Source: Halomicrobium urmianum (GTDB lineage Archaea > Halobacteriota > Halobacteria > Halobacteriales > Haloarculaceae). From it: a stretch of DNA of 64,000 nucleotides. Shown piece after piece: positions 12,856-57,467 of this stretch. The position numbers and the translations under genes were made by a program. Position 1 is the first letter of the stretch; every line of letters begins with the position of its first letter. Under the pieces are notes generated by a model. The model saw only the letters and a list, made by a program, of their open reading frames with translations, did no database searches and had not been told where the DNA came from. The stretch is from contig NZ_CP084090.1 of the NCBI RefSeq assembly GCF_020217425.1, forward strand, positions 2,046,001 through 2,110,000, read 5' to 3'.

Positions 12856-12885
12856 GTGAACCGCCTCGGGGTCAAGCCCCGAGGC
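12856..12885. repeat. Solitary hairpin, uninterrupted ('empty') site for tandem-hairpin module
   Basis: The sequence GTGAACCGCCTCGGGGTC, AAG, CCCCGAGGC folds into a perfect stem (GCCTCGGGG/CCCCGAGGC). I recall similar hairpins near the ends of haloarchaeal IS200/IS605 (TnpB) elements, so this may be a decayed end of one. The same hairpin occurs at 58194-58278, but there it is split by a 55-nt insertion. Confidence 0.6.
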
Positions 12886-13486
12886 ACTCGGCCTGCTCCG
12901 GCTGTAGACATTGAACGCACTGACGCACTCGAAGGGCCCCCGGAGCGCCCTTCGATGTGTAAATAGTTTCAATTTCTACTATAGTCGTCGACAACGTCCT
13001 CCCGAAATTGTCGGCGGGCTTGTGGAGCTCCCGTTTGAGCAGTTCGTTGCGCACGAGATCGAGCCCCAGCTCCGCTAACGCCTCGATCGACTCTTCGAGT
13101 TCCTGCCGCGTGGACGTCGCTATTTCGAGCTCGAGGTTCCGGTGATGGGTCAACAGCTCTCGGACAGCGACGACCCCGTGAACTTCGAGTGCGTCCTCGG
13201 CGAGTTGGCTGCGACTGTCCATCGGGGCCGTTGCGGTGACGAGCATGTGATGGTCGAGTCCGGCCTTCTCGTAGTTGAGGATCGGTTGATAGGCAGTGAT
13301 GATATCTTTCTCTTCGAGCTTGTTGATGCGGTTCCCGACGGTAGTCGACGAGACGCCCACCCTCTCACCGATCCCCGCCGTCGTGTTGTTGCGAGCGTCT
13401 TGCTGGAGCAGATACAGGATGCCCTGATCAGTCGGATCGAGGTCGACCATCGGAACAGGGACAGGTACGCCCTCCACGACCAACAA
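12872..13486 (-). CDS. Lrp/AsnC-family regulator with repeat-derived C-terminus
   Basis: A 204-residue protein. Residues about 14-60 are an AsnC-type winged helix (LDPTDQGILYLLQQDARNNTTAGIGERVGVSSTTVGNRINKLEEKDII), followed by a ligand-binding-like region. The last ~37 residues (from IVEIETIYTS onward) are read straight through a MITE-like element (12902-12984), and the stop codon lies in an older hairpin remnant (12872-12874). The original C-terminus has probably been replaced. The start could also be the ATG at 13449 (MVDLDPTDQ), which fits Lrp proteins better. Confidence 0.8.
   Translation of the reverse strand: MLVVEGVPVPVPMVDLDPTDQGILYLLQQDARNNTTAGIGERVGVSSTTVGNRINKLEEKDIITAYQPILNYEKAGLDHHMLVTATAPMDSRSQLAEDALEVHGVVAVRELLTHHRNLELEIATSTRQELEESIEALAELGLDLVRNELLKRELHKPADNFGRTLSTTIVEIETIYTSKGAPGALRVRQCVQCLQPEQAECLGA
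12902..12984 (-). mobile_element. MITE-like palindromic element, copy 1
   Basis: One of three related elements (others at 30030-30115 and about 57289-57367). The intact end CAATTTCTACTATAG is at 12970-12984; the opposite end is degraded (CTGTAGACATTGAACG). The central hairpin is CGAAGGGC/GCCCTTCG, whereas copy 2 has CGAGGGGC/GCCCCTCG, a paired A-T for G-C change. No transposase is encoded. The element forms the 3' end of the Lrp gene. Confidence 0.75.
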
Positions 13487-29690: not shown

Positions 29691-30334
29691 TCGAAATGAA
29701 ATAGACTAGAAGAGAGAGTCTAGACAGAGTGCCCTCACACACCACCTTCGAAATGAAACGCTGGCGGCGGGAGTCAAATCTAGCTCGCTAATGCGGTAAA
29801 ACGGGTGAAAGCGAGCGATCGTGGCGTACGGTCGACGAACTTCATTTCGATACCGACGTCTCTCGAAGCGGTACATCCGTCGCGGCCGTTCCCCGGTGGC
29901 GGGTCTTCGAATTTCATTTCGAAAAAGGGGTCTGAGGGCTTACGGATCGAATCTCGACTCGGACGACAGATCATTTCGATACCGGTGTCCTCATTTCGAA
30001 GCCGGTCGGAGCGAACTGGCGTCCTCTCTCTATAGTAGAAATTGAACGCACTGACACGCTCGAGGGGCACTCGGGGTGCCCCTCGATGTGTAAATAGTTT
30101 CAATTTCTACTATAGAGCAGGTCCGAGAACTGCGACCGCGCCGCGGCGAAGTTCATTTCGATACCGGTGTCCTCATTTCGAAGTCGGTCCGAGACGTGTT
30201 GATATCTCCCACGGCCACGACCGTGGCCGTTCTCCTCGACAGTCGCACCACGGTGGCGCCACGGGTCATTTCGATATCGGTGTCCTCATTTCGACATTCC
30301 CCCATTCATTCCGACAGACCCTGGATCATATCGA
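29691..30334. repeat. Array of twelve TCATTTCGA boxes, partly 20-bp phased
   Basis: Boxes (9 bp) on the plus strand start at 29842, 29914, 29971, 29991, 30153, 30173, 30266, 30286, 30306 (TCATTCCGA) and 30326 (TCATATCGA); two on the minus strand lie at 29691 and 29748. Spacing within clusters is exactly 20 bp: 29971/29991, 30153/30173, and 30266/30286/30306/30326. Between paired boxes the spacer TACCGGTGTCC is conserved. The last box ends just before the orc1 TATA box (about 30341). Confidence 0.85.
30030..30115 (+). mobile_element. MITE-like palindromic element, copy 2 (most intact)
   Basis: An 86-bp element with terminal inverted repeats CTATAGTAGAAATTGAA and TTCAATTTCTACTATAG and a central hairpin CGAGGGGCAC-TCGGG-GTGCCCCTCG. 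If the real termini are TAGTAGAAATTG, each end is flanked by TA, as in Tc1/mariner-like elements. No ORF. It lies within the box array of the candidate origin. Compare copies at 12902-12984 and 57289-57367. Confidence 0.8.
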
Positions 30335-30372: not shown

Positions 30373-31710
30373 ATGGGAAACGGCGCCGAACCAACTCACG
30401 CCGGGGACGACGAGGCGTCGTCGCCGTCGGAGTCGTCCGTCGTCGACAGCATCCTCGACGGGGAGGCACAGACGGTTTTCAAGAACAAGGACCTCGTCGA
30501 TCCGAACACGATCGTCGACCAGGACCGGATCTACGGTCGAGACGAACAGTTAGCCGCCGAAGCCCGCGCGTTCCGCGACACGCTAGAGGGGGAGCGACCG
30601 CCCGATCTCCTGCTGTACGGGCCGAGCGGTACCGGGAAAACGCTGACCGTGAAGGCGGTCGCGAACAAGGTCAAGCAACGGGCCGAACAGGAGGACATCG
30701 TCTTCGACTTCGTGGCGGTGAATTTCAAGACGATGGAGTCGCACACCCTCGATCGTGCCGTCTGGAAACTGGGCTATCAGACGGCGCAAAAGGCCGGTGT
30801 CGTATGGGACATCCCGCGCAAGGGCGTCTCGACGGACGCGAAGTACGTTCGCCTCTACGAGATCGTCGACGAGCACTTCGATTCGCTCGTCTTCATCCTC
30901 GACGAGATCGACGCGCTCACCGGGCACAAGAACGAAGACGAGCCGGCGTACTCCCGGCTGCTGTACAGCCTCAGCCGGGTCATGGCCGAACAGCACGTCG
31001 ACACGCTCATCTCGACGGTCGTCGTCACGAACTACCCCAAGTTCCGCGAGAACCTCGACAGCCGGACCGACAGCTCCTACAACCCCAACGGGATCCACTT
31101 CTCGGACTACGACGCGAACGAACTGATCGAAATCCTCGATCGGCGTCGTGACGCCTTCAAGGAAGACGCGCTCGAAGACGGCGTCATCGAACTCGTCGCC
31201 GCCTACGGCGCGCAGAACGAGGGCGACGCCCGGCGTGCGATCGACCTGCTGCGCGACGCCGGGGAGATCGCGAACCGGGACGGCGATTCGAAGGTGCGGG
31301 AAGACCACGTCCAGTCCGCCAACGACTCGGTCGTCAAAAACCGCGTTCTGGAGATCGTCGGCGGGATGTCCCTCCAGAAGAAGCTCTCCCTGTACGCGGC
31401 CGCGCTGGTTGCCGACGTGAACGACGGAGCCGCACCGAGCCCCGTCGTCTACCGGGCGTACAGGACCATCTGTAAGATGTCCGACCGGGAGATCTACACG
31501 CAGGAGACCGTCAACAGCCACATCAACAAAGCGGGCACCTACGGCGTCCTCGAGAGCGAGCGGACGAGCAGCGGATACAAGTCGGGCGTCCACCTGCTCT
31601 TCGAGTTCAACGAGCCCGTGGATGCCGTCCTCGAGACCATCGAAGACGACAGCGCGTTCGACGACATCGAGGCCGAGGCGGTCCGCTCGATGGCTGCGAA
31701 GGCGCTATAG
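30373..31710 (+). CDS. orc1/cdc6: Orc1/Cdc6 replication initiator
   Basis: A 445-residue AAA+ initiator. Walker A is LLLYGPSGTGKTLTV, Walker B is LVFILDEIDAL, sensor 1 is VVTNYPKFRENLD, and sensor 2 lies in QNEGDARRAIDLLRDAG. The C-terminal winged helix (about residues 335-420) includes LYAAALVADVNDGAAPSPVVYRAYRTIC. It binds origin repeats and loads MCM. The ATG at 30373 fits the family; the open frame upstream to 30196 reads through the repeats. Haloarchaea usually carry many paralogues, each tied to its own origin. Confidence 0.95.
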   Translation: MGNGAEPTHAGDDEASSPSESSVVDSILDGEAQTVFKNKDLVDPNTIVDQDRIYGRDEQLAAEARAFRDTLEGERPPDLLLYGPSGTGKTLTVKAVANKVKQRAEQEDIVFDFVAVNFKTMESHTLDRAVWKLGYQTAQKAGVVWDIPRKGVSTDAKYVRLYEIVDEHFDSLVFILDEIDALTGHKNEDEPAYSRLLYSLSRVMAEQHVDTLISTVVVTNYPKFRENLDSRTDSSYNPNGIHFSDYDANELIEILDRRRDAFKEDALEDGVIELVAAYGAQNEGDARRAIDLLRDAGEIANRDGDSKVREDHVQSANDSVVKNRVLEIVGGMSLQKKLSLYAAALVADVNDGAAPSPVVYRAYRTICKMSDREIYTQETVNSHINKAGTYGVLESERTSSGYKSGVHLLFEFNEPVDAVLETIEDDSAFDDIEAEAVRSMAAKAL

Positions 31711-57288: not shown

Positions 57289-57367
57289 CTATAGTAGAAG
57301 TTGAAACTGTTCACACATCGGGGCCCCGGGTTCCCCGCGAGTGTGTCAGCGCGTTCGATTTCTACGG
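57289..57367 (-). mobile_element. MITE-like palindromic element, copy 3 (degraded)
   Basis: Left end CTATAGTAGAAGTTGAAACTGTTCACACATC is clear (read in two parts: CTATAGTAGAAGTTGAAAC, then TGTTCACACATC); the opposite end (TTCGATTTCTACGGCAG) has lost its terminal ATAG. The central hairpin is CGGGG-loop-CCCCG. It is inverted relative to copy 2. It lies in the region upstream of the HTH membrane gene, where a long open frame from 57162 runs through it. Confidence 0.65.
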
Positions 57368-57467
57368 CAGTCTGGCCGGGGTCGCCTGGAGCGAACCGCA
57401 ATTGGTTCACCCTCTCCGTCCGAAAGCACAGTATGAGCAGACGGCACGGACGACCGGGGTGGTTCCC

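Follow-up and report, generated by a model that had tools for sequence, protein, structure and literature searches.

A dispersed palindromic MITE of Halomicrobium urmianum, probably linked to IS630 transposases, with one copy in a predicted replication origin

Upstream of an orc1/cdc6-type initiator gene in Halomicrobium urmianum, an 86-bp near-palindrome lies among the boxes of a predicted replication origin. Its position raises the question of whether it forms part of the origin or is a mobile repeat that landed there and, if so, what moved it. A preliminary description of the window, which is the whole 64,000-nucleotide stretch analysed, regarded the repeat as the second of three copies of a non-autonomous, MITE-like element whose folded form is maintained. 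The coordinates of the relevant features are summarized in Table 1.

Table 1. Copies of the repeat and features of the predicted origin, in window coordinates
Feature	Position	Strand	Basis or remark
MITE copy 2 including target bases, C-TA-[element]-TA-G	30030..30115	+	Sequence; empty-site logic from relatives
Left terminal inverted repeat CTATAGTAGAAATTGAA, copy 2	30030..30046	+	TA 30031-30032 is the presumed target duplicate, from empty sites
Right terminal inverted repeat, copy 2	30099..30115	-	TA 30113-30114 is the other presumed target duplicate
Central hairpin left arm TCGAGGGGCAC, copy 2	30060..30070	+	Sequence, fold
Central hairpin right arm GTGCCCCTCGA, copy 2	30076..30086	+	Sequence, fold
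MITE copy 1, of the A-T stem subfamily, with replaced bases at its outer left end	12899..12984	+	
MITE copy 3, decayed, 82 bp	57289..57370	-	
Orc-box pair, left of element	29971..29999 (boxes 29971, 29991)	+	
Orc-box pair, right of element	30153..30181 (boxes 30153, 30173)	+	
Four Orc-type boxes, 20-bp spacing, adjoining orc gene	30266..30334 (30266/30286/30306/30326)	+	
orc1/cdc6-type initiator gene	30373..31710	+	Cdc6 lid, AAA and Cdc6_C domains

The repeat and its copies

Copy 2 combines perfect 17-bp terminal inverted repeats with a central hairpin, which has an 11-bp central stem and an outer stem of 4-5 bp. As DNA it folds far more stably than shuffles do (-30.4 vs -6.5 kcal/mol, z -12), the fold is strong whichever strand is taken, and the copy ranks among the best-preserved of the family. 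All three copies reported in the preliminary description are real, with the limits of copies 1 and 3 revised and copy 3 placed on the minus strand. The inverted ends and hairpin ascribed to all of them are intact in copy 2; it is the only one with both ends undamaged, because the left end of copy 1 reads CGGCTGTAGACATTGAA and copy 3 is damaged in the hairpin and at one end, folding barely above shuffles (z -1.65). The stems of copies 2 and 1 show the paired difference noted earlier (CGAGGGGC/GCCCCTCG vs CGAAGGGC/GCCCTTCG), with G-C in the former and A-T in the latter at element pair 35-53. As also stated before, the copies encode no protein and the window contains no partner IS.

Two further observations concern the surroundings of copy 1. 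The flank CGGGGTCAAGCCCCGAGGCACTCGGCCTGCTCCG at 12867-12898, which abuts its altered end and likewise borders three other copies (L064, L248 and L252), gives the impression that a different mobile repeat, one that has a palindrome close to its terminus, had inserted there. In addition, an AsnC-type HTH ORF on the minus strand (12872-13486) runs in frame through copy 1, which would form the C-terminal tail of its product.

In the complete genome, the 17-nt end occurs 87 + 84 times with up to two mismatches, compared to 0 for the reversed control. The whole-genome search proposed in the preliminary description reveals a dispersed family with at least 106 distinct aligned copies in 4.25 Mb, located on all three large replicons and with a mean identity of 90% to their consensus. 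Covariance-model matches are more numerous as they count both strands of the palindrome, 150 matches representing about 110 places. With a length of 86 bp including target bases, 17-bp inverted repeats, no coding capacity and this copy number, the repeat is classified as a MITE. The A-T stem version of copy 1 is found in 17 of 104 copies; since these have the same stem, it is largely a matter of descent and represents an inherited subfamily.

Some copies in this genome are associated with other elements. An IS5-type IS with a 277-aa transposase ORF is situated inside one of them (L056:11604-12635, corresponding to G000:C1:1088603-1089635) and is accompanied by the 9-bp duplication AACTAGTTT. 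Three copies (L016, L020, L234) adjoin or sit within a different palindromic repeat family with TIR ~GGACTGTTGTAG / CTACAACAGTCC. A TnpB-like ORF of the RNA-guided nuclease type (L056:3932-5149) is encoded in a MITE-rich stretch of C1, at ~1.077-1.107 Mb.

The family is distributed patchily among relatives. A covariance model built from 18 sequences finds it in 36 of 116 Haloarculaceae genomes, representing 12 of 22 genera; five of the seven Halomicrobium genomes contain it and two congeners have 0 copies. In most relatives the hairpin reads otherwise (GATCGCAC..GTGCGATC) yet stays paired, and the ends are the same. Near-identical copies are held by different genera, and the family is present on plasmids of Haloarcula, Halomicrobium and Natrialbaceae, with the relatives' type on those of Haloarcula (including H. 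hispanica), Natrinema, Natronorubrum, Natrialba and Natronococcus. The type of H. urmianum itself was recovered by exact-pattern search from one other assembly only, a Halobacteriales MAG. No match to the MITE was obtained in the phages and viral contigs searched. A plasmid of Natronococcus sp. CG52 (L279) carries a longer variant with about 41 extra palindromic bases in the hairpin loop.

Insertion site and candidate transposase

To locate empty sites, the joined flanks of ten copies were compared with 32 genomes of the genus Haloarcula. When filled, the G011 locus has the sequence CAG-CTATAG..CTATAG-GACTGG; its empty version is CAGCTAGGACTGG in G130, with CTAG intact, and CAGCTAAGAC in G102 and G118. 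A second locus, in G072, has the empty site GGAAGCTAGCGCAGAG in G060. Further compared loci are empty too but have a target altered by point changes (TGAG, CCAG), which leaves two loci as the basis for an empty site with unaltered CTAG. At these sites, which concern a sister type of the MITE, the net insertion at CTAG is 82 bp. This supports the TA duplication that the preliminary description had suggested looking for, as it is consistent with an 80-bp element plus a duplicated TA, though formally the same as an 82-bp insertion without duplication. Among the H. urmianum copies, C and G are retained outside the TA in 62 of 104. Within the window, CTAG is itself about threefold scarcer than expected (24 sites vs 76), and a preference of IS630 for this tetranucleotide is known (Tenzen and Ohtsubo 1991, as cited in PMC2170065).

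The same target is used by an IS630-family IS of the ISNpe3/ISNamo16 group found in relatives, C and G flanking 10 of its 11 well-bounded copies. Its transposase scores 258.5 bits against NCBIfam NF033545 (cut-off 100), contains the Pfam domains DDE_3/HTH_33 and has ISNpe3 and ISNamo16 as annotated kin. An intact version of 342 aa (P0001) is encoded on a plasmid of Halomarina sp. BND7; in several IS copies, the gene is split over two overlapping frames. The tnp-downstream end reads TATAGTAGnC.TT.GAA.T.ATTGCnCA and the tnp-upstream end TATAGTAAC..TT..AAC. We compared MITE and IS ends in register at positions 8-29, past the shared TATAGTA, against shuffles. Mean identity to the IS end is 62% for the Halomicrobium/Haloarcula-type left end, a value reached in 0 of 20000 shuffles, and the H. 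urmianum type yields p 0.0023 for its left end and p 0.0004-0.0008 for its right. The left end of the relatives' types is nearest to the tnp-downstream end, and the right end of the H. urmianum type fits both IS ends about equally well. While the IS is longer (~1059 bp), encodes a transposase and has the inner end motif TTAGAA rather than TTGAAA, it resembles the MITE in its termini, target and subterminal ~29 bp at both ends.

On the basis of the TATAGTA termini, the subterminal similarity, the CTAG target and the IS630 transposase of the relatives' IS, the repeat is very probably an IS630-linked MITE, that is, a short derivative mobilised in trans by an IS630 transposase. A deletion-type derivative may have kept both ends of an IS630/Tc1-mariner-type IS around a palindromic core. 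The transposase would then cut and paste this derivative into the TA of CTAG, producing C-TA-[80 bp]-TA-G, and the MITE would have multiplied to more than 100 copies in H. urmianum, from which the transposase source has presumably since been lost. IS630-type transposases of related species most likely moved the MITE, those of the ISNpe3/ISNamo16 group being the presumed source.

The search for an autonomous transposase with matching ends points to the same family. The earlier reading of a non-autonomous element is supported, with its candidate IS630 partner found in relatives. It counts against the IS630 link, however, that the H. urmianum genome has no match to a DDE_3 transposase and no relative of the IS630 transposase, and that Halomicrobium sp. 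LC1Hm and H. mukohataei gave none at E <= 1e-20 either. One candidate partner within H. urmianum was rejected: matching ends enclose a long interval just once (G000:C1:1088603-1089634), and this proved to be a MITE copy split by an IS5-type element with its 9-bp duplication. Across Haloarculaceae, the transposase is matched in 14 of 36 MITE-bearing genomes vs 43 of 80 others. As this co-occurrence is not above expectation, it counts against recent mobilisation by exactly this IS. On plasmid pNMAG02 of Natrialba magadii (L270), an ISNamo16-family IS630 element is found inside a MITE copy.

It is unlikely that the repeat is instead of the SMR type, bearing ends unlike those of any transposon and moving, without duplicating its target, by an unknown mechanism. 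SMR-A and SMR-B of Haloquadratum walsbyi (PMC3119063), compared here by description, are similar in size (80-110 bp), have prominent inverted ends, reach high copy numbers and insert into other palindromic, mobile repeats. Nested MITE copies are also seen in H. urmianum, and the 82-bp net insertion formally fits no duplication. However, SMRs are defined by transposon-unrelated ends and the lack of a target duplication, whereas the MITE ends are related to those of the ISNpe3/ISNamo16 group of IS630, copies of which insert at the same CTAG target.

The copy in the predicted origin

Boxes of the Orc type (TCATTTCGA) form an array upstream of the orc1/cdc6 gene, those at 30306 and 30326 with one mismatch each. 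Copy 2 was previously said to interrupt this array; it does sit between the first two box pairs, but no box is broken. When 82 bp is subtracted, the spacing of these pairs becomes about 100, close to the 113 measured for the pair that follows. The empty site is predicted to read CTCTCTCTAGAGCAGG. Among 116 Haloarculaceae genomes, the non-coding origin DNA was found in H. urmianum only, with no match in the other 115. In the homologous origin of the Halorubrum plasmid pHrrPV6, the boxes are present and the element is absent.

The preservation of copy 2 and its location within the box array could suggest a functional, fixed part of the origin. We consider this extremely unlikely, given that copy 2 is just one of more than 100 dispersed copies and that the pHrrPV6 origin has its boxes without the element. 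Furthermore, of the 24 CTAG sites in the window, 4 lie in the 800 bp of the AT-richer origin region, which favours landing there. The most sensible view of the origin copy is that it landed by chance where CTAG is more common; as one insertion of an IS630-linked MITE between Orc-box pairs, it would probably be neutral.

Co-variation of the arms and comparison with known repeats

Complementary double changes are more frequent than in shuffles across the 104 H. urmianum copies (51 cells vs ~22.5; 23 kinds vs 12.6). The excess is seen in both parts of the palindrome: the terminal repeats have 19 cells vs 6.5 and 12 kinds vs 5.2 (0 of 1000 shuffles), and the inner stems have 31 cells vs 14 and 10 kinds vs 6.1 (17 of 1000 shuffles). 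Between species, 42 double changes are observed vs 14.7 by shuffles. These shuffles leave shared descent in place; better evidence for paired change is provided by the several double changes in the terminal repeats that are private to one copy. Among single-arm changes, there is no excess of G-U (128) over A-C (161).

Paired changes within the genome and between species, together with a strong fold on both strands, are features that a structured non-coding RNA or single-stranded DNA element under selection for its fold could display. Such an element is nevertheless very unlikely here. A folded RNA is not indicated because co-variation of the arms affects both hairpin and terminal repeats and shows no G-U excess of the kind expected when a structured RNA tolerates such pairs. 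In addition, the element has no match to Rfam families at E up to 1, its distribution is patchy and mobile, and shared descent survives the shuffles. The proposal that a folded form is maintained is also disfavored by the inheritance of the A-T stem and by IS630/Tc1 transposition being a double-stranded cut-and-paste process (PMC2170065). For the IS630-linked MITE, we infer that arm co-variation reflects palindrome-templated correction and/or shared descent. It is possible, though tentative, that the arms are repeatedly edited in place to match, via template switching in a cruciform or hairpin at replication.

Parallels are also known from bacteria. The RUP of Streptococcus pneumoniae, associated with IS630-Spn1 (PMC3049150, PMC2229807), is a 107-bp repeat with about 110 copies, IS630-like inverted ends, a TA target and a palindromic fold, and is found in or near other mobile elements. 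Unlike RUP, the MITE resides in an archaeon, has an unrelated sequence and longer inverted repeats (17 bp), occurs in a CTAG context and lacks a partner IS in its own genome. Correia/NEMIS elements of Neisseria (PMC2229807) likewise have a length of ~107 bp, long terminal inverted repeats, terminal TA and target duplication, but another host and sequence. REP/REPIN elements consist of halves each with its own hairpin and are linked to a Y1 (RAYT) transposase; the MITE forms a single nested palindrome without separate half-hairpins.

A search of the open-access literature found no paper on an IS630-linked haloarchaeal MITE. The repeat apparently represents a large archaeal MITE superfamily, common to Haloarculaceae and Natrialbaceae, that has not been described before. 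Its tie to a specific IS630 transposase group provides a lead on how gene-less haloarchaeal repeats move. With their ends and empty sites known, the hundreds of near-palindromic copies also constitute a natural data set on arm matching in palindromes. If arm editing does occur, the copies would preserve, across a whole archaeal genome, the traces of palindromes correcting themselves.
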